Source: Saprospiraceae bacterium (GTDB lineage Bacteria; Bacteroidota; Bacteroidia; Chitinophagales; Saprospiraceae). Taken from it: a stretch of 64,000 nt of DNA. Location: the NCBI GenBank assembly GCA_026993525.1, contig JALWSS010000092.1, positions 1 to 64,000 of the forward strand. Reading direction: 5' to 3'. This document shows, piece after piece, positions 1-64,000 of the stretch. The translations under genes were made by a program, and so were the position numbers. The notes under the pieces are model-generated. The model was not told where the DNA came from. It saw only the letters and a list, made by a program, of their open reading frames with translations, and made no database searches. Every line of letters begins with the position of its first letter. Positions within the stretch are counted from its first letter, which is position 1.

Positions 1-127
1 ATATGAGGGCGTGGCTTCTGGGGTCGAGGCTTCACTCAGCTCCCGCCCTTTACCCCCCGTTTTTTTCTTCGCAAAACGGATGCGACAGCGTTTGGAAGAA
101 TTTTAGCCATCATAACTTGCTAAACCA

Positions 128-168
128 TTTTCGACCCGGGCCTTTGCGCCTGGGTTCTTTTTTTTGTT
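128..168 (+). terminator. Rho-independent-like terminator
   Basis: acccgggc-ctttg-cgcctgggt hairpin followed by ttctttttttt. Confidence 0.6.
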
Positions 169-232
169 GATTTGTTGAGATTGTTGAATTGTTGAGATTG
201 TTGAAATGTTGAATGTTGAATTGTTGAGGGGC
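166..232. repeat. Low-complexity ttgttgaga/ttgttgaat tandem array
   Basis: Repeated ttgttgaRa units read directly. Confidence 0.7.
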
Positions 233-552
233 GTGAGCTTGTCTCACGATCCCGGGCTTGTCTTACGATCCCGGGCTTGTCTCGGGATTGAGATTGTTGA
301 ATTGTTTAAGTGGTGTATGGCTGGTTTGGGGGCGTATTGGCGATCCCCGTCGTTGCAAGTGTTGAGCGAAGCGGCACTTGCAACATTCCCGTTCCGGCAA
401 GTGTTGAGCCGAGCCCTGGCGAGGCGTCACTTGCCGTGCCATATAACTTTGTTTGCACGCTAAATGAATACTTCAGAGAACACGGCGATCATGAGGTCGT
501 CGTTACAGCATTTTAGTTGGGAAAAAGTCGGGATCGAGAGGCAAGCTCACGA

Positions 553-675
553 CCCTTCAATACTTCAATACTTCAACCCTTCAACCCTTCAACCCTTCAA
601 CCCTTCAACCCTTCAACACTTCAACCCTTCAACCCTTCAACCCTTCAACCCTTCAACACTTCAACACTTCAACAA
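553..675. repeat. 8-bp tandem array (CTTCAAYM)n upstream of ychF
   Basis: cttcaata/cttcaacc/cttcaaca units in register. Confidence 0.9.
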
Positions 676-745
676 TCTCCACATCCCCCAGAATCCTATC
701 TTTGCGGCCGTTTTTAGAAATCACATTCAAACAATATCATCAGAA

Positions 746-1843
746 ATGGCCCTGAAAGCTGGAATTGTTGGCTTGCCCAACGTCGGAAAATCAACCCTTT
801 TCAATGCGCTGACCTCTGCCAGGGCGCTGGCAGCCAACTACCCCTTTGCTACCAAAGACCCCAACGTAGGGGTCATTACCGTACCTGACCCCCGGCTGGA
901 CAAGCTGGCGGAGTTGGTGAAGCCGCAGGCCGTGCTGCCTACCACCATCGAGATACTGGACATTGCCGGCTTGATCAAGGGAGCCAGCAAAGGGGAAGGC
1001 CTGGGCAATCAGTTCCTTGCCAACATCCGGGAAGTGGATGCCATCGTGCACGTGGTTCGTTGTTTCGACGATGGCAATGTGGTGCACGTGGAAGGTGGCG
1101 TGGACCCTGTACGCGACAAGGAAACCATTGATACCGAGCTGATCCTCAAAGACATCGAGACTGTGGAGAAGCGCATCGAGCGCCTGAGAAAGCAGGCAAA
1201 GACCGCCAAAAAAGAGGACATCGCCAATCTCGAAAATGCGCAAAAGATCCTGGCACACCTCAATGAGAGCAAACCGGCCCGGAGCATTGAGCTCGAAGAC
1301 GACGGCATGGCTTTGCTGAAGGAAATGATGCTGCTCACCTCCAAACCCATCCTGTACGTTTGCAACGTGGATGAGGCATCCGTCATTGAAGGCAATGCCT
1401 ACACTGCCCGATTCAGGGAAGCCGTAAAGGACGAACCCGCTGAAGTGATCTACATCAGCGCAGCCATCGAAGCCGATATTGCGGAACTGGAATCAAAAGA
1501 AGAGCGCATGGCCTTCCTCAAGGACATGGGACTCGACGAGCCGGGAGTTAACAAACTGATACGTGCCACTTACCACCTGCTGGACCTCATCACCTATTTC
1601 ACCGCAGGTGAGAAGGAAGTAAGGGCCTGGACCATCCGCCGGGGCTGGAAAGCACCCAAAGCCGCCGGTGTAATCCACACCGATTTTGAAAAGGGCTTTA
1701 TCCGTGCAGAAGTGATCAAATACGATGACTACGCTAAATACGGCTCAGAAACAGCCGTGAAAGAAGCCGGCAAACTTTCCGTGGAAGGCAAAGAATACGT
1801 TGTGCAGGATGGTGATGTAATGCACTTCCGGTTCAATGTTTAG
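746..1843 (+). CDS. ychF: Redox-regulated ATPase / GTP-binding protein YchF
   Basis: MALKAGIVGLPNVGKSTLFNALT P-loop; Obg/YchF-type sequence. Start placed at ATG 746; the upstream ORF extension runs through the repeat. Confidence 0.95.
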   Translation: MALKAGIVGLPNVGKSTLFNALTSARALAANYPFATKDPNVGVITVPDPRLDKLAELVKPQAVLPTTIEILDIAGLIKGASKGEGLGNQFLANIREVDAIVHVVRCFDDGNVVHVEGGVDPVRDKETIDTELILKDIETVEKRIERLRKQAKTAKKEDIANLENAQKILAHLNESKPARSIELEDDGMALLKEMMLLTSKPILYVCNVDEASVIEGNAYTARFREAVKDEPAEVIYISAAIEADIAELESKEERMAFLKDMGLDEPGVNKLIRATYHLLDLITYFTAGEKEVRAWTIRRGWKAPKAAGVIHTDFEKGFIRAEVIKYDDYAKYGSETAVKEAGKLSVEGKEYVVQDGDVMHFRFNV

Positions 1844-1849
1844 CCCGGG

Positions 1850-1980: not shown

Positions 1981-1981
1981 C

Positions 1982-2051: not shown

Positions 2052-3595
2052 CATCCTTCCTTCGCAATGTGCGAACCGACCCTCAAGGCATTGGCGGCGA
2101 TGGTCAGGCTGGGGTTCACTGCAGCAGACGTAGGCATGAAGCTGCCATCAACCACCCACAGGCCATTTACTCCCCTGAAAGCACAGAATTCATCCAGTGC
2201 AGATGTTTTGGGGTCATGGCCCATCCTGACCGTGCCCACGGCGTGTGAGAAGGTGCGTATGTGGTGGGTGTAGGTGGCCCATGCGCCGGCGGTTTTCATG
2301 ATTTTAGCAGCTTCTTTCGTCAAAACTTTCATGGCTGCTTTGTCCCTTTGCGAATATTGGTGAACCACGTTCAGGCGCGGGTAACCCCATTGGTCCTTTT
2401 GGCTGAAATCAAGCCAGCATTTGTTTTCGTAATCCGGTTGGTCTTCGGCTATCGCCAACAGGCCGGTGAGCCGTTTTACCTGGCTGCCGAGCATTTTTCC
2501 CAGAAAGCCCGGCACGGCATTTTCGACCAGGCCGGCCGGTGGTGTGGGCATCTGCTGCAGGCTGCCGATTTTACCGTTCAGTTCGGGATGTGATTCTTTT
2601 CCGAGGTAAAAATCCAGTATCGCCAGTTGTTTGTGAAAGCGGCCTTCTTTGTCGGCCGCGCCCGGGAAGATGCCAAAGACGATGGCGTTGACATGGCGCA
2701 TCAGGTAGTGGCCGACCACTCTTCCGCCGGGGTTCTTTTTTTCCAGTCCGGAGGCCAGGATCAGGTGAGGAGAACCGAGGGCACCGGCAGCCAGTATCAC
2801 ACGAGGGGCATGGATGGTAGATTCTTCACCGGAGGATTTGTTTTTGCATCGCACACCTTTTACCCGGCCGTTTTCTTCCAGAATTTGCAGAACGACGGTC
2901 CGGTCCATCAGTTGCATGCCCTGATTGAGCAAATGCGGGATCAGCACGGTTGCGAGGTCATTTTTCGCATTCACCGCACAGGCGAAGGTATCGCAGGTGG
3001 TGCAGGAAGCACAGGCTTGCTGGCCGGGTTTGTTTTTCCGGTAGTTGATGGCGAGGGGCAGTGGGAAGGGATGCAGGCCGAGGGATTCCGCAGCTTTTTT
3101 AACTTGTTCCGAAACGGTGGCCAGCGGTGCTGCCGGCTGCGGGTAGGGCTTTGACCGGGGTGGGGCAGTGGGGTCATTGGCATCGTCTCCGGAAATGTCC
3201 AGAATGTTTTCGGCCCGGGAATACCAGGGTTCGAGGTCATCGTAACTGATGGGCCACCTGGCCTGGCTGCCGGCAACGAGGTTTTCCGAAGGACTGAAAT
3301 CCTCTTTGCGGAACCTGAAAGATACACCGCCATAAAACACGGAAGGGCCTCCTACACAGGCATAGACACCCATTTCAGCTTTGTTGCCGCCTTTGAGCAC
3401 CTTGTAAGCTGTACTGTTGTCGTAATGGGGGGTGAGATCAAGTGATGCTTTGGGGCCCCAGTTGTGAGGGCCTCTCTTCACCCATTCACCTCTTTCAATC
3501 ATCAACACCTTCATGCCGGCGTGCACGAGTTGCCGGGCGGCCATGGCTCCGCCAAATCCGCTGCCAATCACGATGGCGTCGTATTTCTTGTTCAT
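2051..3595 (-). CDS. GMC-family FAD-dependent oxidoreductase
   Basis: N-terminal GSGFGGAMAARQL dinucleotide-binding motif; C-terminal NPSLTIAANALR GMC signature; Cys-rich CASCTTCDTFAC insert. Confidence 0.85.
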   Translation of the reverse strand: MNKKYDAIVIGSGFGGAMAARQLVHAGMKVLMIERGEWVKRGPHNWGPKASLDLTPHYDNSTAYKVLKGGNKAEMGVYACVGGPSVFYGGVSFRFRKEDFSPSENLVAGSQARWPISYDDLEPWYSRAENILDISGDDANDPTAPPRSKPYPQPAAPLATVSEQVKKAAESLGLHPFPLPLAINYRKNKPGQQACASCTTCDTFACAVNAKNDLATVLIPHLLNQGMQLMDRTVVLQILEENGRVKGVRCKNKSSGEESTIHAPRVILAAGALGSPHLILASGLEKKNPGGRVVGHYLMRHVNAIVFGIFPGAADKEGRFHKQLAILDFYLGKESHPELNGKIGSLQQMPTPPAGLVENAVPGFLGKMLGSQVKRLTGLLAIAEDQPDYENKCWLDFSQKDQWGYPRLNVVHQYSQRDKAAMKVLTKEAAKIMKTAGAWATYTHHIRTFSHAVGTVRMGHDPKTSALDEFCAFRGVNGLWVVDGSFMPTSAAVNPSLTIAANALRVGSHIAKEG

Positions 3596-3659: not shown

Positions 3660-4169
3660 TCAGTATTGTGTGGAGGCAGCCCGGTGGGTGGCCTGTTTGT
3701 CCGGTTTGAGAACGGGAAAGGAAAGCGAAGTGTAAAGTTGAAAGGTTTCAGTATGTGTCAGGGGCAGGCGGTACTGTTTTGCGAAGCGAGAGAAAAAAGC
3801 TGAAAGCGCCTCCCGGGAAACGTTCCTGGATGCAGGCTTCAGGTAAAAGGCGATGTGTTGGATACTGCCGTCGGGGTTCCAGAAAATGTGTATCCAGCAC
3901 TTGACACCGTTCAGGTCAAAGCCCTCGGAAAATGCTCTTTTTTGAATGTCCACTGCCATTTGCCGAAGGAAATGATACGCCTCTCTTACATCATTGTGGC
4001 AAACACTGACCAATGATGCACTGGAGGCTGCCAATTCGTTGTAGGTGGATTCGTATTGGCCGATCAGGAACACCCTGGGTACTTGCGCACCCGAACCCGA
4101 TCCACGTGGTTGTGCCACGGAATTCAGAATGAAAGAGACAGTAAACAGTATGACCAGTATTCCTTTCAC
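3660..4169 (-). CDS. Hypothetical secreted protein
   Basis: 169-aa ORF with N-terminal signal peptide. Confidence 0.65.
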   Translation of the reverse strand: MKGILVILFTVSFILNSVAQPRGSGSGAQVPRVFLIGQYESTYNELAASSASLVSVCHNDVREAYHFLRQMAVDIQKRAFSEGFDLNGVKCWIHIFWNPDGSIQHIAFYLKPASRNVSREALSAFFSRFAKQYRLPLTHTETFQLYTSLSFPVLKPDKQATHRAASTQY

Positions 4170-11794: not shown

Positions 11795-12574
11795 TCAAAG
11801 CGAGATTGACAGTCCGTCATAGGCAAGGGTTACATGAGGCGGCAGCGTGGGGTTGATCTTCTCAAATGTTCCCATGTGGTGGCTGATGTGGGTCAGGTAT
11901 GCTTGTTCAGGATGCAGTTCCTGTATCAGCTCCAGTGCTTCTTCAAGATTGAGGTGTGTTTTGTGGGGCTTGTGGTGCAGTGCATTGATGACGAGGTGTT
12001 TCAATCCGGTCAAACCGGATTTTGATTCTTCAGGAACTGTCTTGACGTCTGTGAGGTAGGCAAATTGACCGGTCTTGAAACCCAGAATAGGCAAGTTGCC
12101 GTGGAGTAGTTGCAGGCATTTGAAATGAATGTCTCCGATGACAAGTTCCTGTTGGTTCTCAATTTCAGTGAGAACAAGCTGTGGTGCTCCGGGATAGGGA
12201 TTCTTGTCAAAAATGTATTTGAAGCGCTGTTGAATTTCACCGAGCACCCTGCTCATGGCATAGACCGGCATTGGGCGCTTTTGTTTGAAGTTGAAGGGAC
12301 GGACGTCGTCCAGGCCGATGATGTGGTCGTTGTGTTCATGGGTGATGAGAACAGCATCCAGTTTTTTAACCCCTTCCCTCAACATTTGCTGCCTGAAATC
12401 AGGGCCGGTATCAATAACGACGGTGGTTTCCGGTGATTCGATCAGGATGCTTACCCGCAGCCTGTGGTCTCGCAAATCAGCGGAGGTACACACTTCGCAA
12501 TCACAACCGATGACCGGCACGCCTTGCGAGGTGCCTGTGCCCAAAAATGTTATTTTCAGAGGTTTTCCGGACAA
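11795..12574 (-). CDS. MBL-fold metallohydrolase (PhnP-like)
   Basis: FLGTGTSQGVPVIGCDCEVC and THEHNDHI. Confidence 0.9.
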   Translation of the reverse strand: MSGKPLKITFLGTGTSQGVPVIGCDCEVCTSADLRDHRLRVSILIESPETTVVIDTGPDFRQQMLREGVKKLDAVLITHEHNDHIIGLDDVRPFNFKQKRPMPVYAMSRVLGEIQQRFKYIFDKNPYPGAPQLVLTEIENQQELVIGDIHFKCLQLLHGNLPILGFKTGQFAYLTDVKTVPEESKSGLTGLKHLVINALHHKPHKTHLNLEEALELIQELHPEQAYLTHISHHMGTFEKINPTLPPHVTLAYDGLSISL

Positions 12575-12641: not shown

Positions 12642-14165
12642 TCACCCCCTGAGTGCTTCATAGGTGAGTTCCCAGAGTTTTTCATAGGGAATGGGTTCCA
12701 TTTCTGAGCTCTGCGGGGCCCTGGACAATGGCATCTCGGCCAGTTTTCTGATGTATTTCTTTGCCCTTTCGTAAACGGTGCGTTTGTGAAAATACCCAAG
12801 CGGAATCTGGGTGAGCATGTGAATGAAGCAATTGCTCCGGTAAGTGTCGTTTTTGCGAAGGTGACGGCCTGCATAGGCCTTGAGAGCTTCCACCCGTTCG
12901 ATTACTTTTTCCTGCCTGTTTTGCCGAAGGAAAAACAATATCTGTAGAGAAAGCACAGCGATGTTTGCCCCTCTTTTGTCCTTCGAGAACTCTGCCACCT
13001 GGTTCAGAAAGCGGCCCAGTTTGAAGCCTTTGAGCTGAGCTTCCTGCTTCATGGTAGGCCTGGCTTTTTCAGTCAATACAAGGTAGTGAATGAAAGCCTC
13101 CATCAGCAACCAACGCTCCTGGTAAACCCTTGGCAACTTGGCCCTTTCCGGTTTGTTGAAGGCCTCCAGAAATACCTTCAACGCTTCCTGATAATTGCCA
13201 GTGTGCAGGTTCAGCAAGAGTTCGTACTCCTTGATGATGAACCAGTTGTGATTAGGGACGGGATACTCATTCAAATAACTTTCTATTTCCACCTTTGCTT
13301 CAGAATAATGACCCAGGTGCAGCAGACTTGAAATGGCGGATATTTGAAAAGTGAGAAAGGCAGTGGGTGCCAGCAAATGCTTTTTGGGGGTCAAAGCTTT
13401 GATCGCCTCCCTGGCGCTTTTCAATACTTTGGAGTGATCATACACAAGATGGTAACGATACATCTTTACCCGGTAGTAATTCAAGTAGAACGATGCCGTA
13501 CGATGCTCAGGTGGTATTCTGTCAAGCTCTTCTACATACTTAATGGCCTCCGGCTCAAGAAAACTGTAAGAAGCTCTGGATTTTACGAAGTGAACTGCCA
13601 GCATGCTGTAATACTGTTCAGCTTTCATCTCGGCCTCCAGTTTCTGTAGTTGAAGATGCAGTTGCTTGTTCAGCTTCTCCAAAATTTTCGGATTGCCTTC
13701 TGTTAGTAAATAAATCGAGCGTAGTTGCCGTAGCGAAAGAACAGCCAGGTCCGTGAATTCAAATTTCAAAGCGGTTCGGTACAGCTGTTCTGCCAATTTC
13801 CGCCTTATAGATATAGAAACGAATCGGCCGGTCAGTATCTTTAATGATGCATAATCCTGGTGTCCTCGATAATACGCTCTTTGGATATCCCTGAACTTAG
13901 GCTGATTGAGGTCAATGAACAGAATGGAAGTCAGCAACTTCTTTTCAAGTTTTTTGATGGTTTTGTTCAATGCCTGTTCCGGATCCTTGTTCTTTTTGAA
14001 CAGCAAATCAATGGCATCTTCAGCTGATTTGATCTTCCCTGAATGAATCAATACATAGAGTTGCTCCGTCTTATTGGTCGCTGATATTGAGCCCTGACCG
14101 ATGATTTCCAAATTTTTGGCCTTGTTTTTGGAAACTACATTCACGAGTTCAATCAAATCCTTCAT
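12642..14165 (-). CDS. Hypothetical helical (TPR-like) protein
   Basis: 507-aa helix-rich ORF; family unknown to me. Confidence 0.75.
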   Translation of the reverse strand: MKDLIELVNVVSKNKAKNLEIIGQGSISATNKTEQLYVLIHSGKIKSAEDAIDLLFKKNKDPEQALNKTIKKLEKKLLTSILFIDLNQPKFRDIQRAYYRGHQDYASLKILTGRFVSISIRRKLAEQLYRTALKFEFTDLAVLSLRQLRSIYLLTEGNPKILEKLNKQLHLQLQKLEAEMKAEQYYSMLAVHFVKSRASYSFLEPEAIKYVEELDRIPPEHRTASFYLNYYRVKMYRYHLVYDHSKVLKSAREAIKALTPKKHLLAPTAFLTFQISAISSLLHLGHYSEAKVEIESYLNEYPVPNHNWFIIKEYELLLNLHTGNYQEALKVFLEAFNKPERAKLPRVYQERWLLMEAFIHYLVLTEKARPTMKQEAQLKGFKLGRFLNQVAEFSKDKRGANIAVLSLQILFFLRQNRQEKVIERVEALKAYAGRHLRKNDTYRSNCFIHMLTQIPLGYFHKRTVYERAKKYIRKLAEMPLSRAPQSSEMEPIPYEKLWELTYEALRG

Positions 14166-19660: not shown

Positions 19661-19714
19661 TGCTGCTGCTTTTCCCGGGGAATTCCCATCTTCGCAACTC
19701 ACAATGATTCCGCG

Positions 19715-20829: not shown

Positions 20830-21072
20830 ATGAAACTGACGTTGTTGGCATTTGGCATTGCGAAAGACATCACCGGGAAGAGGTTCTCACAGATTGAGAT
20901 GCCGGACAATTGTACGGTGGCTCAATTGCGCAGTGTGCTTGCTGAGCAGTATCCTGTATTGAGCGATCTGGCTGCCCTTCGCTTCGCAATTAACAGCGAA
21001 TATGCCCAGGAAGGCGACACGCTGAAAGATGGTGATGAAGTGGCGTTGATTCCACCCGTAAGTGGTGGTTAA
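20830..21072 (+). CDS. moaD: MoaD/ThiS family sulfur carrier
   Basis: 80 aa, C-terminal diglycine IPPVSGG, followed by moaE. Confidence 0.9.
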   Translation: MKLTLLAFGIAKDITGKRFSQIEMPDNCTVAQLRSVLAEQYPVLSDLAALRFAINSEYAQEGDTLKDGDEVALIPPVSGG

Positions 21073-29100: not shown

Positions 29101-29683
29101 CTACCCATTACCCACAAATCCACCATTCCGGTTCTGAGAGTTCTGCAAGCGTAGTACACTCATGAAGTTACCGAGGCGTGAAAAAGTATTCTTCACCCAT
29201 CAAACATCTTGAAACCCCTTGTTTCAACGAGGGGTTAGCGAATTAACTCCCAATCACATCAAACATCTTTACAGAGCATCAGCATCAATTTCTATCCACA
29301 TCCCGAATTTGGTGCTAAAGCCATTCCTGATGTGATGTTTTGAATAGAAGTTGGATGTGTGTAGGGGTACTGGCAAGATTCCCGCCGTTGAAACAGCGGG
29401 TTAGAAGATGGCTGATGTCACCACAGTTTTTTGCCACAGCTCAGGCAACAGGGTATAAAATTTTTTTTCACGATCAATGAAGTCGGGTTGCAGAGGCATT
29501 TCCCGATGGGGTTGGGATTTGTGGGTAATCGATAGGGTTGAGAGGGGTTTACCCCATGTGCTCTCAACCCCTAACGCTGCTCCTTCTCTCGAAACTCGGT
29601 TTTGCGAAGCGACCAAAAAAAAATGGCGGGAAGAATCCCGCCACAGTGATTTGAAAACAAAGTCTTGGTATCCGGACCGTCCA

Positions 29684-37459: not shown

Positions 37460-37738
37460 GGTTGTGGGAGTACTGGAAAAAATCGTTTTCCGAAGGGAAT
37501 TATTTTTTTATTTCCGAACTTGATTCGGGATTAATCGTTTTTTCCGGGCTTCGTCAGGGACGTCGTTGATTCAATTTCGGCTCGCTTCGCAATAGTTGTT
37601 GTGCTCAATTGAACTACATTTACGAAGAAAGAGCCCGCTCACTGGGGCGCCATATCATGCTCAACTTGTCTTACAACATCTCCGGCTTCGGAAAAGGGCA
37701 GGATGGTGGGATGACCATTGATATTTTGGGGGAGTGAG

Positions 37739-46213: not shown

Positions 46214-49200
46214 ATGAAGTCTCATTCTTTTCCTTTCCTGATCCGTCTGTTGGCGGTTTTCTTCGCAATTGCAATACTGGCCCCTTCTTGTTCTGACAAG
46301 CCCACTTATGTCAAGGCCGATGAAGTGCCCGAGGAGGTTGTACCTTATGTGCATGGATTCACCAGTGGGGTCATTTCATTTCGAGACCCTGTACGGGTGC
46401 GTTTTACCGGTTCGGCCGTTTCCGAAGATGAAGTTGGGCAGGATGCCAGTGGCATTCTCGAGTTTTCACCGAAGGCCAAAGGGCATGCCTGGTGGGAAGA
46501 TCAGGCCACCCTGCGTTTTGATCCCGATCCCGAATGGAAGGCGGGTCAAGGGTACATCGCAACCGTCCACCTGGATGAGGTGTACGACAACCTTCCGGAA
46601 AATGCGGCTTCTTTCGAGTTTGATTTTCTGGTCAATGAACACAAGTTTTTGGTGGACATATTCGGGCTGGAAATTCCCGAAGGTGAAAACCTGGCCTTCG
46701 TGAGGGGCATGCTGATCACCGACAGGGGCCTGGCCTCCGAGAATGTGGAAAAGGCCCTTCAGGCTTATGACAACGGGCAAGCCCTGGAAGTGGCCTGGGA
46801 CCATCACGAAGACGGCACCCACCAGTTCGTGGTGCAGAACGTTGCCCTTCGGGAAACGGCCGGCAAGGTAGAATTGAAGTGGGAGGGGGAGCCACTGAAC
46901 ATCAGGGCCAATGGACAGGCCGAAGTGGAAGTGCCGGCCCTGAACGACTTCAGTGTACTCTCGGTTCACCTGAACGAATCGGGGCAGCGCGCCCTGACCG
47001 TGTATTTTTCCAAACCATTGCGCAGCGACCAAAACCTCAACGGCCTGGTGGCCCTTCAGCAAGCCGGCCAGGACAACATCTACGACCTGCAAAGCGAAAT
47101 TGCCGACAACAAACTGACGGTGTATCCGCCCTCCTGGCTCCGGGGCCAATTCAGTGTGGTGCTGTTTCCCGGTATTCAAAGCGCTGATGGAAAAGAACTG
47201 GACCGGCCCACCACCTGGGAGGTGGAACTGAAAGCGCCACCTCCCGCAGTGCGGCTGGTGGGCAATGGCGCCATTCTGCCGGGTTCCGATGAAGGTTTGT
47301 TGTTGCCTTTTGAGGCCGTGAGCTTGCAGGCGGTGGAAGTGGAAGTGTTCAAGATATTCGACAACAACGTGATGCAGTTCCTGCAGGATGCTACCCTTGG
47401 CGACATCTCCGGCAGCTACGAGTTGCGCCGGGTGGGCCGGGTGGTGAGCCAGCAGATGGTACCGCTACGGGGCCTCGATGCAGATGCCGACCCTTACGAG
47501 TGGAATCGCTATGCGCTGGACCTCAGCAAACTGTTCACCGCTGACCCCAACGCCATTTACCAGGTGCGCATCGGCTTCAGGCCCTCGTATTCCCTGTATC
47601 CCTGCGCCGGCAACGAAGATGAAGAACAACCCCTGCGCACGGCAGCCGTGAGCAACAGTGGAGGAGAGATCAACAGCATCTGGGACAATTATTACGGCGT
47701 GCAAGGGTATTACGACGGCTTCAAATGGAGCCACCGGGAAAACCCCTGTTATCCGGCGTATTACAACCGCGAAAATTTTGCTGCTACCAACGTAATGGCC
47801 ACCAACATCGGCCTGACGGCCAAAGCCGGTGCGCCCGGTCAGGGTGGGCAGGTGCAAATGTTCGTAGCCGCAGCTGACCTGCGCACGGCCAAAGCCCTGG
47901 GGGAGGTAGAGTTGGAGTTTTACGACTACCAGAAACAACTCCTCGCTTCCGCAAAAACCGATGGCGATGGACTGGCGGAGATCACCCTGCCGAAACAACC
48001 CTGGTTCCTCGTTGCGAAGAAAGAAAATGAGGTGACGGTGATGCGCCTGGGCGATGGTGATGCCCTGTCGCTGAGCCGCTTCAACGTAAACGGAACCGTG
48101 GTGCAAAAAGGCCTCAAAGGCTTCATCTACGGTGAAAGAGGCGTGTGGCGCCCCGGTGATGAGATGTTCCTCAACTTCATACTGGACGACCCCGGCGAAA
48201 GCCTGCCGGACAACTACCCGGTGGCTTTTGAATTGTACGATGCCCGCGGACAAATGCAGTACAGCACCGTTGTCACCACCAATGTTCAGAACATTTACCC
48301 CATCCATGTAAAAACAGGCCCTGCTTCGCCTACCGGCAACTGGCGGGCTGTGGTGAAAGCCGGCGGAGCGGTCTTCGAAAAAACCCTCAAAGTGGAAACG
48401 GTGAAACCCAACCGCCTGAAACTGGACCTGAAGTTCGCCGGTGGCAAAGAGGTGCTGAGTGTTCAGGATGAACCCGTGTTCGTGAATTTGACCGTAAGCT
48501 GGCTGCACGGGGCTCCGGGTGCCAACCTGCGGGCAGTGGTGGAAGCACAACTCCAACCGGTGGAAACAAAGTTTGACAATTTTGGAGATTTTAAATTTGA
48601 CGACCCCGCCCGGGAGCTGTACAGCGAGCCGGTCGTGATCTTTGACAACCAGGTGAACAAGGATGGCAAAGCCTCTTTTGCCGCCCGGCTGTACAACAAA
48701 GAGAACCTCGCCCCCGGCAAGCTGGTGGCCCGCATTTCTGCCCGGGCTTTTGAAAGGAGCGGGGATTTCAGCATCTACAACACCCGCCTCGATTACCATC
48801 CCTATACGGGCTATGCAGGTGTGGCCATTCCTGAAAACAAGTGGGGTGAAAAACGCCTCGATATTGGCAAAGAGAAAGCCATCCGCTTTGCTGCCGTAGG
48901 CAGCGACGGAAAACCGGTAAGCGGCCGGAAACTGAACATCGGCCTTTACAAGGTTAAATGGCGCTGGTGGTGGGAACGGGATCGCAGAAGTTTCTCCAAT
49001 TTCAGCAGCGCCAATCATTACAACGCCCTGGAAAAGACCACCGTCACCACCGATTCGAAAGGCCAGGCCGTGTGGAATGCCAAAGTGGATGCCTGGGGGC
49101 GCTACCTGGTGCGTGTTTGCGACGAAGAAACAGGCCATTGCAGCGGTGATTTCTTTTACGCCGGCTACCCCTGGTACGACGCCGGCTCCAACCTGCTGGC

Positions 49201-51985: not shown

Positions 51986-53404
51986 ATGATGTACCGAGTT
52001 CTTATAGCCCTTGTCACAGCAAGTCTGGTGGCATGCACACCAAAAACAGGCGAGCAAACTACCCAAACGCCACTGCAGCAGCCAACCCAGCCCGAGGTGC
52101 CGGTGGTGGAAAACCCCTGCGCCACCTTTGCCGATGCACCCAACCCGGACCTGGCCCTGGAGAACTTCGTGCTGTACCGGGATTTTTTGAAAACCAAAGA
52201 CTGGGACCTGGCCTTCGATTACTGGAAGAAGGTGTACAAGGATGCTCCCGCTGCCGATGGCAAGCGAACCACCGTATTTACCGACGGGGTGAAATTCTAT
52301 GAGCATTACATGCAGCAGGACACCAGCAAAAAACAGGAGTACATCGAAAAGATCTTTGAGCTGTATGACAAGATGGAAGAGTGCTACCCCGATGGCGGGA
52401 TGGCAACCGGCATGAAGGCATTTGACTACTTTTTCAAATACCCTGAGCTGAAAACCAAAGAGGAATTGTACCAGCTCTTCAAAAAATCCATCGAGCAGGA
52501 TGGGGGAGAGCCCCGCTATTTTGTGATCAATCCCTTTACCTCTTTGCTGGTGGACCTCGTTTTAGACAATAAAATTCCGATTGATGAAGCCCAACAATAC
52601 GCCAGGCTGATCTTCAAATCCATTGACAAGGGACTTGCAGAATGCGAAGGCCAGGAGTGCGAAGGCTGGAAGGTGATCCAGGAATACGCACCTGCCAGGC
52701 TGGAGGCCCTGGAAAGTATTGAGGGATTCTACGACTGTAAGTACTATGCTGACAAATACTACCCGGAGTTCGAAGCAAACCCCACCGATTGTGAGACCAT
52801 CGTTCGCACCTATTCAAGGATGAAGTGGGGCGGTTGCGAAGATGCAGAGCAGCGCTTCGCCAACGTGAAAACTGCCTACATGCAGAACTGCTACCAGGCA
52901 CCCACCAGCCCCGTTGAGGCCTGCAACGACTTTCTTCGCAACGGCGAATACCGCAAGGCCGTCAACTGTTACGGGGAGTTGCTTCAGAACATGACCGACA
53001 ATGCACAGAAAGCACAGATCAACCTCGTCATTGCGAAGATATACTTTGCCTACCTGAAGAATTTCCCGAAGGCAAGACAATACGCCCGCAAGGCTGCTTC
53101 CCTGCGGCCGGGATGGGGTGAACCATACATTTTGATCGGCACCTTGTACGCTTCCAGCGGCCCGCTCTGTGGCCCCGGTCGCGGCTGGGACAGCCAGATT
53201 GTCGTATGGCCCGCCGTGGATATGTGGAACAAAGCCAAGCAGGTGGACCCCTCCGTGACCCGCGAAGCCAACCGGCTCATCGCCGAGTACTCACAATACA
53301 TGCCCACGAAGGAGGATATTTTCCAGCGCCTGTTAAAGGAAGGTGACACCTATTTCGTGCCCTGCTGGATACAGGAATCAACCATCATCCGGGCTGCTCC
53401 GTGA
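51986..53404 (+). CDS. TPR-like lipoprotein
   Basis: Lipobox SLVACTPKTG; helical tetratricopeptide-like sequence. Confidence 0.75.
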   Translation: MMYRVLIALVTASLVACTPKTGEQTTQTPLQQPTQPEVPVVENPCATFADAPNPDLALENFVLYRDFLKTKDWDLAFDYWKKVYKDAPAADGKRTTVFTDGVKFYEHYMQQDTSKKQEYIEKIFELYDKMEECYPDGGMATGMKAFDYFFKYPELKTKEELYQLFKKSIEQDGGEPRYFVINPFTSLLVDLVLDNKIPIDEAQQYARLIFKSIDKGLAECEGQECEGWKVIQEYAPARLEALESIEGFYDCKYYADKYYPEFEANPTDCETIVRTYSRMKWGGCEDAEQRFANVKTAYMQNCYQAPTSPVEACNDFLRNGEYRKAVNCYGELLQNMTDNAQKAQINLVIAKIYFAYLKNFPKARQYARKAASLRPGWGEPYILIGTLYASSGPLCGPGRGWDSQIVVWPAVDMWNKAKQVDPSVTREANRLIAEYSQYMPTKEDIFQRLLKEGDTYFVPCWIQESTIIRAAP

Positions 53405-53965: not shown

Positions 53966-53970
53966 CGTCC

Positions 53971-55470
53971 TCACATCCACTCGCGTCCGGAAGCTTCCAC
54001 CTTGTACAGCACCCAGTTGCTCAGTTGGGTGGCTTTTTCCTTCGGTAAATAAGGGATTCTGACGGAGCCGGCGGCGGTGTGCAGTTCGACGTGGGCGAGG
54101 TTTCGGCGGCGCAGGAACCAGTTCTCATGCAGGGTGATGCCCTGTACTTTGTACAGTTCGAGGAGGACCCCTCTTCGGGTAACCACGCCCCACTGAGCCC
54201 GAAGTGACTCCCGGCTGATCTGCCACTGCCAGTTTTTGTGGAAGCGGATGGCCAGCCACACCCCGATGGGCAACCACAGCAGCAGCAACCAGTGGCCCGG
54301 CATTGACCAGGACAGGTACAGCAGCACGGCCACCGGCCCTATGGCCTGCAACCAGATCTGCCGCCAGATGACCCTCCGGTGGATGCCGTGGGCAGTGTAT
54401 TCACGGTGATCTTCTTCCGGAAAGCAGATTCTTTGAACCACTGCCAGTTGATCCTGGTAGCAGCCCGGAACCGAAAAGGTGGTTTTGCGGCCCACGGCTA
54501 CGCTGGCTGCCTGTGGCAAACGGAGGTGGACCATTTTGAAATGGCGCCTCAGTGGATTGTCGGACCAGCGCAAAAACTGGATCTTCGGAAAGCTGGCCGA
54601 TACCTCCTGCCGGGTGAACAGTCCGCTCACCATCTTCAGCCCGTTCAGGGTTTTGAACACCCGGAGGTCGAAATAGCGCAACACCGTGTTGAGCAATGAG
54701 AGCAGGACCGACAGCAACAGAAAAAAGACCACTCCCCAGAGAAACAGGAAGGCGTAATGATCGTCAGCGGCCATGCCGGGCACCTTTTCCAATTCCTCTT
54801 CCAGTTTGATGTCCAGTGCGTTGGCCACATCGTCCATGAAACCGTATGCGAAGGCCATGATGATGCCGGCGGTGCGCAAGTGGTTCTGGCTGAGGCCGAT
54901 CTTCAGCAGGTCGGCCGGTTTGAGGTGGAAAAGCAGCAATTCTTCTGCCTTTTGTGTGGGTATTGTGGCTTTTTCGTTTTCCGTTGCGGGTGGCGTCTTT
55001 GCTTTGCTGTTGACTTGTTCCACATAGCTTCGCAATGCCTCTGCCTGTTCTTTGCGGATGGCCTGCAGGCTGAACTCCTTTCCGACCGAGCCGGCCGTGT
55101 CAATTTCAACGGCCACCACGTTCAGGGCCTGGTGCATAATGCCCTGCTTGAAGTTGATGGTCTGGATGCGGTCCAGTGGTACGTTGATCTTTGTTTTGCG
55201 AAGCACCCCCTTTTCCAGCACCAGTTCCCCATCCCGGATGTAGAAGTAAAAGTTGAACCAGGAGATCACCGAGATCAGTGCACCCAAAAGGGCCATTCCG
55301 ATGAAGAGCCAGGTAAAGCCGCCGAAAACCTGCTTTTTCGGGTTGAAGAAAATCACCAGGATCAGCACCCAAAGCTGCCGCACCAGGATGCGCAGTACAT
55401 TGCCCAGAATGAAAAGGATGGCCGCTGACGACTGTCGGGTGGGTTCCGGAAATGGTACTTGTTGGTGCAT
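53971..55470 (-). CDS. bPH2 (YdbS/YdbT-like) membrane protein
   Basis: Duplicated PH-like segments FYFYIRDGELVLEKGVLRKTKINVPLDRIQTINFKQG with TM pairs. Confidence 0.85.
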   Translation of the reverse strand: MHQQVPFPEPTRQSSAAILFILGNVLRILVRQLWVLILVIFFNPKKQVFGGFTWLFIGMALLGALISVISWFNFYFYIRDGELVLEKGVLRKTKINVPLDRIQTINFKQGIMHQALNVVAVEIDTAGSVGKEFSLQAIRKEQAEALRSYVEQVNSKAKTPPATENEKATIPTQKAEELLLFHLKPADLLKIGLSQNHLRTAGIIMAFAYGFMDDVANALDIKLEEELEKVPGMAADDHYAFLFLWGVVFFLLLSVLLSLLNTVLRYFDLRVFKTLNGLKMVSGLFTRQEVSASFPKIQFLRWSDNPLRRHFKMVHLRLPQAASVAVGRKTTFSVPGCYQDQLAVVQRICFPEEDHREYTAHGIHRRVIWRQIWLQAIGPVAVLLYLSWSMPGHWLLLLWLPIGVWLAIRFHKNWQWQISRESLRAQWGVVTRRGVLLELYKVQGITLHENWFLRRRNLAHVELHTAAGSVRIPYLPKEKATQLSNWVLYKVEASGREWM

Positions 55471-55598
55471 GAATTGGCTGGTTGCAGACGGACAAAGATA
55501 TTTGCCGGAGGCGTAAGTGTTCTTTCAGGGGAGGAAAATGTCCTGATTAATGGTTTCTTTCTCTTTCAGAATACCCAACATTGCGAAGCGAAGAAATT

Positions 55599-56531
55599 AT
55601 GCTCATCAACAAAAGCGAAATAGAACCGGGAAGCCAGGAGGTGATCCGGCTGCTGGTGGGGCGCCTGCCCTCGGATACCCGTATTTACCTGAATGTGCAC
55701 GTTTACCGCAGCGCAAAGCCCGGCCCGGTGGTGGGACTGCTGGCCGGTGTTCACGGTGATGAGATCAACAGCGTTGAAATCTTGCGGAGGGTCATTTCCG
55801 GCGGCATGCTGGAAAAACTGGAGCGGGGCAGCGTGCTCGTCATTCCGGTGCTCAACGTATATGGGTTCAACAATTATTCACGGGACGTGCCTGACGGCAA
55901 AGACGTGAACCGCAGTTTTCCCGGTTCTGCCAAAGGCTCTCTGGCCTCCCGGGTGGCCCGGTTGTTCACCAGACACATCCTGCCGCACATTGACTTTGCC
56001 ATTGATTTTCACACGGGCGGCAATTCCAATTACAACTATCCGCAGATACGGTACACGGCCGGTCACGGTGCCAGCCGGACCCTGGCAGAGCAATTTGCTG
56101 CGCCCTTCCTCATTGCGGCCCGCCCCATTGCCCATTCGCTTCGCAAAACGGCGTTGGCAGCCGGCAAGCCCGTCATCGTTTTCGAGGGCGGAGAAAACCT
56201 CCGTTACGACGGCCTTTCGATAGAGCAGGGGATGGCCGGAATCCGGCGGGTATTGCACGCCCATGCGATGCTTGACAACGCTCCGCCGCCAACCCACACA
56301 CCGGTTCACCTGAGCAAAACCACCTGGGTGCGGGCCTCACGCCCCGGCATGTTTCGCTGGACCAAACCCTCCGGCCAGCCCGTCAGAAAAGGCGAACCCC
56401 TGGGCCTCATCAACGACCCCTTCGGTGAAAGTGAGTACCCCGTCGTTGCCTCCAGAGACGGATACCTCATCGGCCACAACAACGCCACCATCGCCGGCCA
56501 GGGCGATGCGCTGTTTCACATCGGAGCATGA
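55599..56531 (+). CDS. Succinylglutamate desuccinylase/aspartoacylase family protein
   Basis: GLLAGVHGDEINSVEILRR; DVNRSFPGS; DFHTGG. Confidence 0.9.
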   Translation: MLINKSEIEPGSQEVIRLLVGRLPSDTRIYLNVHVYRSAKPGPVVGLLAGVHGDEINSVEILRRVISGGMLEKLERGSVLVIPVLNVYGFNNYSRDVPDGKDVNRSFPGSAKGSLASRVARLFTRHILPHIDFAIDFHTGGNSNYNYPQIRYTAGHGASRTLAEQFAAPFLIAARPIAHSLRKTALAAGKPVIVFEGGENLRYDGLSIEQGMAGIRRVLHAHAMLDNAPPPTHTPVHLSKTTWVRASRPGMFRWTKPSGQPVRKGEPLGLINDPFGESEYPVVASRDGYLIGHNNATIAGQGDALFHIGA

Positions 56532-57775: not shown

Positions 57776-59416
57776 ATGAACAAAGCCTCCAATCTTTACC
57801 GAAGCGAAATAGCCGCTGAGTTGCAAAAAGAGCCCTTTGACCTGCTGGTGGTGGGCGGAGGCATCACCGGAGCGGGCATTGCCCTGGATGCCGCATCCAG
57901 GGGCCTCAGTGTGGCACTGGTAGAACGGGAGGACTTTGCCTCGGGAACCAGCAGCAAGTCCACCAAACTCATCCACGGCGGGCTGCGCTACCTGAAAAAC
58001 CTGGAATTCTTACTGGTGAGGGAGGTCGGCCGGGAGCGGGCGGTGGTGCACGGGCTGGCACCCCACCTGGTAGTGCCCGAAAAGATGCTCTTGCCCATTC
58101 TGAAAAAAGGTACCTTCGGAAAATTCAGCACCTCCATCGGGCTTTGGCTCTATGATCTGCTGGCCGGGGTGAAAGGTGATGACCGACGCAGGATGCTGGC
58201 CCGGCAGGCCACCGTTTCGGAAGAACCCCTGGCAGAGCGCCCCGACCTGCTGGGAAGCGGCCTGTACGCCGAATACCGCACCGACGACGCCCGGCTGACC
58301 ATCGAGGTGGTGAAAACGGCGATCCGGCACGGGGCGGTTTGTCTCAATTATTGCCCCGTTGAAGATTTTCACTACGAACGTGGAAAATTGGCCGGGGTAC
58401 TCTGCCGGGATGCTGTCAATGGCAACATCATTCCGGTGGCAGCACGGCAAATCGTCAATGCGGCCGGCCCCTGGGTGGATCACCTTCGGCGAAAGGACAA
58501 CTCGCTGAAAGGCAAACACCTCTTCCTCTCCAAAGGCGTACACATCGTGGTGCCCCGCGAGCGCCTGCCCCTGAAACACAGCGTCTATTTCGACGTGCCC
58601 GACGGGCGGATGATGTTTGCCATACCCCGGCACCGATGCACCTACCTGGGCACCACCGACACGGCTTACGAAGGCAAACCGGAGCAGGTGGCAGCGGATG
58701 CAAACGATGTTCACTACATCCTGGATGGCGCCAATGCCATGTTTCCTTCGGTAAATCTGGAAACGGGGGATGTGGAAAGTACCTGGGCAGGGTTGAGACC
58801 GCTCATTTACGAAGAAGGAAAAAGCCCCGGGGAGATGAGCCGGAAAGACGAAATTTTTGAATCCGGGAGCGGACTGATCTCCATCGCCGGCGGCAAACTG
58901 ACGGGCTATCGCCTCATGGCAAGGAAAGTGGTGGACCTGGTTTTGCGAAGAATGAAAAAAAACAAAAACACCACATACGGCCCGTCCAGAACCCACCACA
59001 TACCCCTCAGCGACCAGCCCTTTGCGAACACCGCTGAAGTGCGCCATTTTGAAGAAGATCTTCTGAAAACCGTCCGCCAGGCCGGCCTGCCCGCCTGGAA
59101 GTGCTATGCGCTGACTGAAATGTTCGGCCGGCATGCGCAAGGCATCGTGGAAGCCGCCATACAACTGGGCGGAGGAGAGGAAGCCCTCATCAGAGCAGAA
59201 CTGCACCACAGCCTGGAACACGAACTTCTGGCCACACCCCTCGACTTTTACGAGCACCGCAGCGGCCGGCTTTTCTTCGAAATAGACTCGGTGCAACCCT
59301 CCCTCGATTTTGTAATTTCGGAATTCAAAATTGCCTTTGGCTGGTCAGAGGAGCAGGCGCTGAACGCCACCGGAAAAGTGAACCGGGAAATCAGCCGGGC
59401 AAAGGTTTTTTTGTGA
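57776..59416 (+). CDS. glpD: Glycerol-3-phosphate dehydrogenase
   Basis: LLVVGGGITGAGIALDAASRGLSVALVEREDFASGTSSKSTKLIHGGLRYL. Confidence 0.95.
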   Translation: MNKASNLYRSEIAAELQKEPFDLLVVGGGITGAGIALDAASRGLSVALVEREDFASGTSSKSTKLIHGGLRYLKNLEFLLVREVGRERAVVHGLAPHLVVPEKMLLPILKKGTFGKFSTSIGLWLYDLLAGVKGDDRRRMLARQATVSEEPLAERPDLLGSGLYAEYRTDDARLTIEVVKTAIRHGAVCLNYCPVEDFHYERGKLAGVLCRDAVNGNIIPVAARQIVNAAGPWVDHLRRKDNSLKGKHLFLSKGVHIVVPRERLPLKHSVYFDVPDGRMMFAIPRHRCTYLGTTDTAYEGKPEQVAADANDVHYILDGANAMFPSVNLETGDVESTWAGLRPLIYEEGKSPGEMSRKDEIFESGSGLISIAGGKLTGYRLMARKVVDLVLRRMKKNKNTTYGPSRTHHIPLSDQPFANTAEVRHFEEDLLKTVRQAGLPAWKCYALTEMFGRHAQGIVEAAIQLGGGEEALIRAELHHSLEHELLATPLDFYEHRSGRLFFEIDSVQPSLDFVISEFKIAFGWSEEQALNATGKVNREISRAKVFL

Positions 59417-61433: not shown

Positions 61434-61680
61434 GTGCACTGCAAAAAGTGGTATTCTCGTCAATCGAGGTTATTCCTTCTGGAAAAATGTCGGACAGAGT
61501 CCGACAAGATATGGTCCCGGACATCCCGAAGAAATTTCGGGACGGAACCAGCGTAGTTGCTGGCGCCTCCCGAAATCCTTCGGGACGTCCGGTGCCTCAT
61601 CCAGCCGGACTCTGTCCGGCATGTGAGCATTCAAATTTCCGTCGGAATTAATGAGTTAGGGGTTTTTGCAGTGGACTCAG
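61434..61680. mobile_element. MITE-like element, family 2, copy 2 (inverted)
   Basis: GAGTGCACTGCAAAAAGTGGTATT left end equals the reverse complement of the copy 1 right end, and vice versa. Confidence 0.6.
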
Positions 61681-61770
61681 GAATTGAGGAATCGAGGAAT
61701 TGAAGAATTGAGCCCCGAAAGCCGATACCGAATCCCGAAGAATTTCGGGATCGGGAGAGGGATCACTTTC

Positions 61771-63507
61771 TCAATTCGCAAACACCATCCTTTTCGTGTC
61801 CATCACTTTGCCGTCCACGACGATGCTGTAGGTGTACACACCGGTGACGTTGTATCCGTGGGTGTACAGCACGGTGTTGATTCCGGGTCGGAGCTGAACC
61901 GGCAGGCGTTTGATGGTGTTGCCGTTCAGGTCTGAAATGGTGATGAAAGCCTTTTCGTAAACCGGCACTTGGTGCACCATGAAATCAATGTTGGTGGCTT
62001 CGTCAAAGGGATTGGGCCGGTTCTGGAACAGTTCGATGGGCTTTGCGGGCACTTCTTCCACCGCTTCTCCGGTGGCGTTGACGGTGGCGGGAATTTTCTC
62101 TCCGGAGAAGAGGCTTTCGATGCCTTTGGCATCAACGGCGGCCACGCTGACCCACCCGCCGCCTGTGGGCCTCGGAACGGAAGCTATCGCCGAGTTCACC
62201 GTCCAGATGCTGTCAAACTCATTGCTCAGCGAGCGAAAGAAAACGCGGTATTGGCCGTAGTTCTCCGGGTCGTCAATTTCCACGTGGAGGAATTGGTCGT
62301 CTTTTGTCGTCTCAAACTCAGGTGTTTTGGGTCCGGTGGCGGCCATGGCAGCTGCCACACCGTTGATGACGGCGTTGCGCGACAGGTAGTTGAAATCCAC
62401 AAAAAAGCTGTCAATGACCTGATCGCCGTCGGTATCCACGCCGAGAATATCCGTTGTTGTGTGTTGGCGGTCGTGGTAATTGGGATTGCTGGTATTGGCG
62501 TTGCCGTGTTCGTTGGCGGAGGTGAAGCGCATGGCCGGGAAGCCCTGTTGCCGGAAGGGGATGTGATCGCCGCCTCGGCCGGTGCGGTCCTCAGCCGACA
62601 TGATGGTGAGCTGCATCGGTACGTTGACCAGGTCCATCACTTCTTCGAGGTATTGCAGTTTGATGAAGCGGGCCAGTTGTTTGTGCGGAGAGTTGATGCT
62701 GCCGGCAGAGAACAGGCGCACCTGGGTGCTGTCAATGTGGTTGAGGCCAGGGCAGGAAGGAGGCGAGGAGGTCTCCCCGCAAATGATGCCGCCAACGATG
62801 TCATTGTTCAGCACAGCCCGTATCCGGATGCCTTTGTTTTTGGCGTATTTGGCGAAGGCATCGGCGCCGTAGAGGCCCTGCTCCTCACCGATGGTGCACA
62901 TGAAAACCACCGTCCTTTTCAGGGCCAGTTGGCTCATCACCCTGGCCAGTTCGATGACCAGCGCCGATCCGCTGCCGTTGTCCTCCATGCCGTGCGCCTG
63001 GCAATCCACATCGCAAACGCTCTCGCAGCGACTGTCCAGGTGCGCTTCAATGAGGATCATGTCATCGAGGTCGCCGTCTGTTCCCGGCAAGACCGCAAAG
63101 ATGTTTCTGTGTTGCTCCATGCCGCAGATATTGCGGTCAAATTGCAGGTAGGATGGGAGCAGGCGCCCCTCGTTTTCCGAAGAAAACTGTTGGAATTTGC
63201 TGTACACCCATCGGCGCGCAGCGCCAATGCCGGCGATGGCTGAGGTGGTGTCGGAACCCGTGTTGCGGGTGTGAAAATCGTTCAGCACTTCGAGGTAGGC
63301 GTGGAGCGAGTCGGGAGACACATGCTGCAAAATGTGGGAAACGATTGCATCCGGTTGATCTATGACCTGTGAGGGTATGTAATCGGCCGGATTGTAATTG
63401 CCCAGCATCACCTGCTCAGCCACCGGATTGGTGGAAAGCATGTTGCTCTGACTCATTACCGCCCCTGTGAAGGCGACAGAAAACAAAAGGGTGAAATAAC
63501 TTCTCAT
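61771..63507 (-). CDS. M28 family metallopeptidase with T9SS-like C-terminal domain
   Basis: IEAHLDSR, HGMEDNGSGSALVIELAR, GEEQGLYGADAFA; C-terminal GVYTYSIVVDGKVMDTKRMVFAN. Confidence 0.9.
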   Translation of the reverse strand: MRSYFTLLFSVAFTGAVMSQSNMLSTNPVAEQVMLGNYNPADYIPSQVIDQPDAIVSHILQHVSPDSLHAYLEVLNDFHTRNTGSDTTSAIAGIGAARRWVYSKFQQFSSENEGRLLPSYLQFDRNICGMEQHRNIFAVLPGTDGDLDDMILIEAHLDSRCESVCDVDCQAHGMEDNGSGSALVIELARVMSQLALKRTVVFMCTIGEEQGLYGADAFAKYAKNKGIRIRAVLNNDIVGGIICGETSSPPSCPGLNHIDSTQVRLFSAGSINSPHKQLARFIKLQYLEEVMDLVNVPMQLTIMSAEDRTGRGGDHIPFRQQGFPAMRFTSANEHGNANTSNPNYHDRQHTTTDILGVDTDGDQVIDSFFVDFNYLSRNAVINGVAAAMAATGPKTPEFETTKDDQFLHVEIDDPENYGQYRVFFRSLSNEFDSIWTVNSAIASVPRPTGGGWVSVAAVDAKGIESLFSGEKIPATVNATGEAVEEVPAKPIELFQNRPNPFDEATNIDFMVHQVPVYEKAFITISDLNGNTIKRLPVQLRPGINTVLYTHGYNVTGVYTYSIVVDGKVMDTKRMVFAN

Positions 63508-63584
63508 GGTCGGGAATTATTGAGTTCTCTGAAAAAAGTCATTTTGCGTTGGAGTTGACCGCAATTGAAGTTGGTTTGAGGGTT

Positions 63585-63733
63585 ATGGAGGGTTATGACC
63601 CCGATATTCATCGGGGATGAAGGGTTATGAAGGGTTATGAAGGATTATGAAGGTTGGGGACTGGGCTACCTCCTCTCTCAACCCCTCTCAACTTCTCTCA
63701 ACTTCTCTCAACTTCTCTCAACTTCTCTCAACG
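63585..63733. repeat. Tandem arrays (GAAGGGTTAT)n and (TTCTCTCAAC)n with ccccgat..atcgggg hairpin
   Basis: 10-bp units in register. Confidence 0.85.
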
Positions 63734-63905
63734 ATAATTTTAATTTGCCTCTAAGATAGGTGTTGTTACATTTATTTTTAGACTTGACCGGGGAATACTC
63801 AAAATGTCATCGCAAAGGGATGCCTGATTGACCTTCGGGGAATAAATCGGAAGCTTCCGGTAATACCCGGGTGCAGGCGGCAGTTATCAACGGCAAACCT
63901 GCCTT

Positions 63906-64000
63906 ATGAGAGATTTACTGCTCCTGTTTCTGTTTTTCACTTCGTCAATACTTCATTCACAATCTTCTGACACCCTCTGGCAATACTGGCACAAAAACCA
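63906..64000 (+). CDS. 5' end of a secreted protein ORF, truncated by the window
   Basis: ATG then MRDLLLLFLFFTSSILHSQSSDTLWQYWHKN signal peptide. Confidence 0.6.
   Translation, partial: MRDLLLLFLFFTSSILHSQSSDTLWQYWHKN

Follow-up and report, generated by a model that had tools for sequence, protein, structure and literature searches.

A marine bacterium of the family Saprospiraceae has about 1,330 scattered genomic copies of TTGCGAAG, a short word followed by A-rich sequence, and the motif is conserved beyond what codon and protein constraint account for. We infer, at about even odds, that a genus-specific signal of the DNA-uptake type, in a pilus-free member of the Bacteroidota, has TTGCGAAG as its core. 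The window, the whole stretch of 64,000 nucleotides that was analysed, holds 30 exact copies, 15 per strand; each copy claimed in the preliminary description was found at its coordinate, with the orientation balance given there. The position and strand of each copy were taken from an exact-match search, as follows.

67..74, minus strand: TTGCGAAG word, exact match; followed by an A-rich tract, AAAAAAACGG
2060..2067, minus strand: TTGCGAAG word, exact match
3779..3786, plus strand: TTGCGAAG word, exact match; extended TTTTGCGAAGCGAGAGAAAAAA
8551..8558, plus strand: TTGCGAAG word, exact match
12493..12500, minus strand: TTGCGAAG word, exact match
12853..12860, plus strand: TTGCGAAG word, exact match
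18265..18272, minus strand: TTGCGAAG word, exact match
19690..19697, minus strand: TTGCGAAG word, exact match
20982..20989, minus strand: TTGCGAAG word, exact match
22629..22636, minus strand: TTGCGAAG word, exact match
22804..22811, minus strand: TTGCGAAG word, exact match
29602..29609, plus strand: TTGCGAAG word, exact match; full extended motif TTTTGCGAAGCGACCAAAAAAAAA
31746..31753, plus strand: TTGCGAAG word, exact match
31940..31947, minus strand: TTGCGAAG word, exact match; extended TTTTTTGCGAAGAAAAAACC
33690..33697, plus strand: TTGCGAAG word, exact match
34685..34692, minus strand: TTGCGAAG word, exact match
37585..37592, minus strand: TTGCGAAG word, exact match
39895..39902, plus strand: TTGCGAAG word, antisense in OmpA-like gene 39070-41430; kept in sister species
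40356..40363, plus strand: TTGCGAAG word, antisense in OmpA-like gene 39070-41430; not kept in sister species
40866..40873, plus strand: TTGCGAAG word, antisense in OmpA-like gene 39070-41430; sister species has TGGCGAAG
46261..46268, minus strand: TTGCGAAG word, exact match
48012..48019, plus strand: TTGCGAAG word, exact match; kept in sister species
52834..52841, plus strand: TTGCGAAG word, exact match
52934..52941, minus strand: TTGCGAAG word, exact match; kept in sister species
53031..53038, plus strand: TTGCGAAG word, exact match; kept in sister species
55028..55035, minus strand: TTGCGAAG word, exact match; kept in sister species
55196..55203, plus strand: TTGCGAAG word, exact match; kept in sister species
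55581..55588, plus strand: TTGCGAAG word, exact match; sister species has TTGCGCAG, another motif member
56139..56146, minus strand: TTGCGAAG word, exact match; sister species has TTGCGCAG
58943..58950, plus strand: TTGCGAAG word, exact match; then AATGAAAAAAAACAAAAA

The over-representation noticed in the preliminary description was borne out by Markov and codon-shuffled nulls and by a check for restriction to a single frame, none of which reproduced the excess. As compared to the 30 copies found, dinucleotide shuffles of the window gave 3.1 ± 1.7 (maximum 8 in 100 shuffles) and an order-3 Markov model gave 3.5. In the whole genome of 5.16 Mb there were 658 + 673 = 1,331 copies, against 79 + 78 = 157 for the word read backwards, and the density in the window (0.47 per kb) was above the genome mean (0.26 per kb). 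Predicted coding sequences (510 kb) contained 139 copies against 22.0 ± 4.7 after synonymous-codon shuffling (maximum 38 in 100 shuffles), and on this null TTGCGAAG ranked first among all 8-mers. Enrichment extended over all six frames and both orientations (2.5- to 43-fold), the genic share of copies (139/186) was the same as the coding fraction of 75%, and orientation was independent of gene strand, in agreement with the earlier view that copies lie in genes in various frames and that codon usage explains them poorly. Thus, the word is strongly over-represented genome-wide in both orientations, independently of reading frame and codon usage, as an uptake sequence should be.

The word is the core of an asymmetric motif of about 20 bp in which wTTGCGAAG(C/A)(G/A)A runs into an A-rich tract. 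The flank logo has T/A at -1, C/A at +8 and A at +10; in the tract beyond these, the word's strand is rich in A and poor in T. The wider context TTTTGCGAAGC proposed earlier was correct but incomplete, the informative flank being on the 3' side (C/A-G/A-A, then the A-rich tract). Copies lying sense to a gene (90), antisense to one (88) or between genes (40) had this flank alike, always on the word's own strand, and past the A-tract no similarity among copies was found. G004, a sister species, had the core flank as well, and G003, another sister species, had it less strongly. One form of the motif with core and A-tract is TTTTGCGAAGCGAAAAAA. Over-representation fell with rising mismatch load (6.1, 1.4 and 1.0, as compared to 1.1, 1.0 and 1.0 for the control), and a similar gradient is reported for uptake words (PMC1939737). 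In an uptake sequence exact copies should outnumber singly mismatched ones; here, coding sequence had 139 exact copies against several hundred with a single mismatch. TT(G/C/A)CGAAG, TTGCGCAG and TTACCGAAGGA were also members of the enriched set by a weight matrix derived by EM; since this matrix is partly coding-driven, with frame-biased matches, our strong claims are based on the exact word.

Conservation was checked, as the preliminary description had proposed, in 178 kb aligned with a sister species at 82% identity. There, 32 of 55 copies (58%) were intact, as compared to 24.4% for 8-mers matched for composition and CpG, and several of the lost copies are other members of the motif in the sister species. 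Synonymous third positions inside the word were identical in 88 of 106 cases (83%) against 59.8 expected (56%; z 5.9). The word is common to most species of the genus, known here from draft genomes, with enrichment up to about 8.5x; among 248 genomes of the family, seven of the eight well-sequenced species of the genus stood out, and no comparable enrichment was found in other genera of the family (about 100). In G003, TTGCGAAG was again the top 8-mer of coding sequence (79 vs 19), and in G002 and G009 the word was weak. Sharing among close relatives is a property of uptake sequences, and so is depletion from acquired DNA, which was seen in small samples. A 46-kb contig of G003 (C3) encoding Rep3, a MobA relaxase and ArdC, and likely a plasmid of that species, carried no TTGCGAAG among the copies listed for G003. 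Within syntenic spans, sequence unaligned to the sister species had one copy in 23 kb (0.04 per kb), as compared to 55 in 178 kb (0.31) of aligned sequence, both small samples.

A look for competence genes, also suggested earlier, revealed ComEC, DprA, helix-hairpin-helix (HHH_3) proteins and a DUF5689 protein (E 5e-62) encoded in the genome; no ATPase (PF00437) of the type IV pilus machinery, which reads classical uptake sequences, scored above the cut-off in the window's genome (G000). Transformation of Riemerella requires proteins of the ComEC, DprA, HHH and DUF5689 kinds (PMC8459023), and all of these kinds, the four that the check covered, are encoded here. In G026, of the same family, an ORF 21 bp upstream of the DUF5689 gene has outer-membrane-receptor-like sequence and no Pfam match. 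ComEC and DUF5689 occur family-wide, including genera without the word and the weak-word G002 and G009. Riemerella columbina favours its own DNA, and no uptake word is known for it (PMC7965970). Genes for components homologous to some of those of the pilus-free Riemerella system, which comprises ComEC, DprA, HHH, DUF5689 and beta-barrel proteins, are present in this genus; no uptake word has been identified in Riemerella.

The uptake words studied in depth are those of two Gram-negative families, both users of type IV pili, and the likeness to them claimed in the preliminary description holds for enrichment, use of both strands and frame independence, with a looser consensus here, in which singly mismatched forms outnumber exact ones. 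Like TTGCGAAG, the Pasteurellaceae USS (AAGTGCGGT / ACAAGCGGT) occurs in a thousand-plus copies in both orientations, many of them genic, is common to related species, loses over-representation with mismatches and has a short core with AT-rich sequence on one side (PMC1626085, PMC12616744). It differs in belonging to another phylum, in its unrelated sequence, in having two AT-rich segments rather than a single continuous A-rich flank, and in the type IV pilus ATPase, which was not found here; exact density is about 1/kb for USS and DUS (PMC1626085) as compared to 0.26/kb here. The Neisseriaceae DUS (GCCGTCTGAA and dialects) shares genus-level occurrence, balanced orientation and depletion on acquired elements, but is read by the pilin ComP, has no flanking tract and often forms inverted pairs at terminators, of which TTGCGAAG showed no excess.

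If the word does act in uptake, a surface or outer-membrane DNA receptor of a pilus-free system would read the motif, preferring double-stranded DNA with the word and its A-rich 3' flank, and DNA of the same species would therefore be imported more often and then recombined into the chromosome. Such bias would raise the copy number over time wherever the protein code permits and leave the motif out of recently acquired elements; uptake bias, rather than another process, would then maintain the copies. The candidate receptor is the DUF5689/beta-barrel pair or a partner, and the cells would presumably be naturally competent. We give somewhat less than an even chance to the fuller claim that Bacteroidota here yield their first DNA uptake sequence, and that its reader is a non-pilin receptor (DUF5689, an outer-membrane partner or another pilus-free part). 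No uptake word in Bacteroidota, and no mention of TTGCGAAG itself, was found in the literature searched. If true, a third lineage would have arrived at word-guided uptake on its own, converging on a core with an AT-rich flank, and self-recognition in transformation could have arisen more than twice. A strong genus-limited word, the lack of a pilus ATPase and much of a Riemerella-type gene set together provide a concrete test sequence, which could help to trace the receptor that the pilus-free system uses, and absence of the word could mark acquired DNA in these genomes.

The preliminary description had offered uptake, Chi and architecture as candidate roles, with function as inference, and the evidence favours uptake without proving it. 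A Chi-type word would be read on single-stranded DNA by an AddAB/RecBCD-type nuclease-helicase that switches from degradation to recombination, and would therefore accumulate in the core chromosome. Chi sites are likewise short and abundant, the core-genome enrichment and the empty plasmid-like contig would fit, two encoded PDDEXK_1 (PF12705) proteins of AddAB-like size are consistent with AddAB, and GCGAAGCG bears a passing resemblance to GAAGCGG, the Chi of S. aureus. We consider this reading improbable, and favour uptake over it because strand skew was absent. There were no strand domains and none of the leading-strand excess of Chi (heterogeneity among contigs p=0.45 for exact copies and 0.79 by PWM, in a test that detects a bias of at least 70:30 and that a weaker bias could escape), and adjacent copies were in the same orientation 95 times and opposite 97 times. 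The word's confinement to one genus also speaks against Chi, as do its extended A-tract and degenerate family, since known Chi sites have, to our knowledge, neither a long A-rich flank nor graded degeneracy.

An abundant nucleoid or segregation protein that binds DNA sequence-specifically, the density of its sites being selected chromosome-wide, would agree with a dispersed, strand-neutral word that is the same in genic and intergenic DNA; an A-tract beside a GC core would go well with a protein that binds bent DNA, and a loose consensus fits ordinary protein-binding sites. Spacing was random (CV 1.0) rather than even, however, density varied two- to fourfold among contigs, the plasmid-like contig was empty among the listed copies and no candidate protein was identified, and such a role appears rather unlikely. 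Little probability is likewise left for a functionless HIP1-like word produced by context-dependent mutation, mismatch-repair bias or a modification system. HIP1 is a precedent for highly iterated words without settled function, and that of TTGCGAAG is putative; but local mutation bias would hardly make an asymmetric motif of about 20 bp with graded positions, synonymous sites are more conserved in the word than in the same codons elsewhere, and the plasmid-like contig lacks any listed copy. The analogy with cyanobacterial HIP1 drawn earlier stands as to high iteration in and between genes and fails as to symmetry: HIP1 is a palindrome and TTGCGAAG is asymmetric with a one-sided flank, and uptake is favoured over HIP1-type words because of this. 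An origin in the usage of codons or amino acids, or in interspersed repeats that left remnants, is extremely improbable. Some other enriched coding words (CATTGAC-type) do have three-base periodicity, but for TTGCGAAG the shuffle counts and six-frame enrichment already refute codon usage, the same motif is found in intergenic copies, and copies lack the similarity past the A-tract that repeats would leave.

Other words were set aside. Because their motifs show three-base periodicity, CATTGAC, GCCGGCA and other enriched words of coding sequence are likely coding artefacts. TAGGGAGT and other low-complexity words outscored TTGCGAAG against the Markov model in the window; they came from intergenic tandem arrays and were rejected as comparable dispersed words. 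The mini-hairpin of d(GCGAAGC) is very stable, but a hairpin reading of the word was rejected, as A at +8 in 38% of copies breaks the stem and triloop hairpins as a class were only mildly enriched. Words of the CCGAAGG/TTCCGAAGGAA type were likewise enriched.

The 8-mer TTGCGAAG was found at all 30 window coordinates listed in the preliminary description, 15 per strand, against 3.1 copies expected from dinucleotide shuffles and 3.5 from an order-3 Markov model. Genome-wide, the 5.16 Mb draft (G000, 230 contigs) carried 1,331 copies, evenly balanced between strands, and 157 of the reversed word; thus, the excess was not confined to the window. Simple gene calls made for this analysis over 677 kb of G000 (75% coding) placed 139 of 186 copies in genes, matching the coding share. 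As proposed earlier, several reading frames were used: genic copies occupied all six, with enrichment of 2.5 to 43 times in every frame taken alone. When synonymous codons were shuffled inside each gene, preserving protein and codon usage, 22.0 ± 4.7 copies were obtained as compared to the 139 observed, the largest departure of any 8-mer in the predicted genes. Codon usage, already considered a poor explanation, was ruled out as the source of the excess by these shuffles and the six-frame enrichment.

Comparison with the sister species G004 (178 kb aligned, 82% identity) showed that TTGCGAAG is maintained as a DNA word. Intact copies numbered 32/55, the baseline being 24.4% for 8-mers with equal composition and one CpG, and altered copies had often changed into related enriched words, with TTGCGCAG arising in four cases and TTCCGAAG in two. 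Where a codon kept its amino acid and its first two bases, a third base lying within the word was identical in 88/106 cases, as compared to 59.8 predicted from the same codons elsewhere (z 5.9). This synonymous excess indicates that the DNA word itself is maintained.

The preferred bases around the word were T/A at -1, C/A at +8, G/A at +9 and A at both +10 and +11; an A-rich tract extended 3' to ~+17, or to ~+25 in intergenic copies. Tract and word shared one strand in sense, antisense and intergenic copies, so the tract belongs to the DNA as such rather than to the protein encoded. Four seeds given to expectation maximisation all led to a single ~20-bp motif, wTT(G/T)NCGA(A/C)G then R-A-A-A; since training used coding sequence and the matches of the matrix were partly frame-biased, the matrix served as support only. 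Enriched kin were TTCCGAAG, TTACGAAG, TTGCGCAG and TTGCGACG. With rising mismatch number, over-representation was 6.1, 1.4 and 1.0 for TTGCGAAG and 1.1, 1.0 and 1.0 for the reversed word.

Among 60 relatives and 248 family genomes spanning about 100 genera, a strong excess was found only in the window's genus; a few other genera showed about two- to threefold. Seven members (G000, G001, G003, G004, G005, G006, G011) carried about 1,200-1,350 copies each, and G007, G008, G010, G012 and G013 showed a weaker excess. In the more distant species G003, comparison with codon shuffles likewise ranked TTGCGAAG first among CDS 8-mers (79 copies vs 19). It was near background in G002 and G009 of the same genus, a possible place to seek altered or lost specificity; ComEC and DUF5689 were present in both despite this.

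Some G003 contigs lacked TTGCGAAG. Contig C3 (45.7 kb) had none among the matches listed, about 9 being expected at chromosomal density. Its first 20 kb (L067 1-20000) encode a Rep3 initiator, a MobA-type relaxase and an ArdC anti-restriction protein, which, with the matches listed, mark C3 as a predicted plasmid or similar element; a T9SS-sorted PKD protein is also encoded there. Two ORFs (2300 and 2695 aa) lie in a TTGCGAAG-free stretch of contig C2 (L066 1-20000). The larger has a C-terminal toxin-deaminase domain (PF14424), which suggests a polymorphic-toxin island, and a full-length PF00437 ATPase is encoded further on in C2. Within syntenic spans of G000, sequence without alignment to G004 held 1 copy in 22.7 kb, as compared to 55 in 178 kb. 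The samples behind these contrasts, C3 included, are small.

A search for competence genes, as advised earlier, found ComEC, DprA and HHH_3 proteins in G000, together with a DUF5689 protein (E 5e-62). A transposon screen in Riemerella anatipestifer found ComEC, DprA, ComF, RecA, a helix-hairpin-helix protein, a DUF1343 protein and a DUF5689/DUF5017 protein with its outer-membrane neighbour to be required for transformation (PMC8459023). In G026, of the same family, the DUF5689/DUF5017 gene directly follows an ORF resembling an outer-membrane receptor, Pfam naming the DUF5689 protein alone. Such transformation genes occur broadly across the family, and their presence alone therefore does not account for a word restricted to one genus. 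No type IV pilus ATPase was detected in G000, the sole PF00437 matches scoring about 20 bits, under cut-off. R. columbina favours its own DNA, and a raw k-mer count there gave A/T-rich words only (PMC7965970).

The likeness to USS/DUS noted earlier held for most sequence-testable features, among them the USS layout of core plus AT-rich flank, here one-sided (PMC1626085, PMC12616744). It failed on three: unlike known uptake words, TTGCGAAG occurs in a genome without pilus machinery, its consensus is looser (single mismatches outnumber exact copies) and its exact density is lower. Because of these departures the motif is not filed as USS or DUS. Closely spaced inverted copies, which characterise DUS at Neisseria terminators, showed no excess.

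Judged from such features, the chance that TTGCGAAG would work like an uptake word is about one half, and Chi-like, architectural and neutral readings together take most of the remainder. A strongly skewed Chi-type word is disfavoured by balanced orientation: contigs showed no strand heterogeneity (exact copies, p = 0.45; matrix sites, p = 0.79), and adjacent copies were opposite in 97 cases and equal in 95. A Chi with weak strand bias may apply, AddAB-like nucleases being encoded in G000. Gaps between copies looked exponential (CV 1.0), which argues against an evenly spaced architectural word.

Other features of the window were as follows.

32663-32797, tandem array
45637-45748, tandem array
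45998-46114, tandem array
53482-53620, tandem array
53783-53967, tandem array
20524-20574, tandem array
38807-38861, tandem array
61353-61431, tandem array
26640-27050, 93-bp repeat unit, 4.4 copies, 95% identity, beginning at the glutamine--tRNA ligase gene end
18206-19660, + strand, predicted caspase-like protein, EACC1-associated type, under curated cut-off
23564-24850, - strand, serpin (serine-protease-inhibitor family; PF00079, E 4e-115)

The arrays, mostly intergenic by predicted genes, have 7-, 8- and 10-bp units including CTACTCC, AGGGAGT, GTCACCC and GAGGAATT; units such as TAGGGAGT, CCCTACAC and GAGGAATCG rank among the most over-represented words in a genome sample. The 93-bp unit contains the inverted repeat GGAGCTA...TAGCTCC. 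The caspase-like protein has N-terminal repeats, apparently MORN-type. The serpin gene adjoins one whose DUF3179 product also carries a carboxypeptidase-regulatory-like domain.
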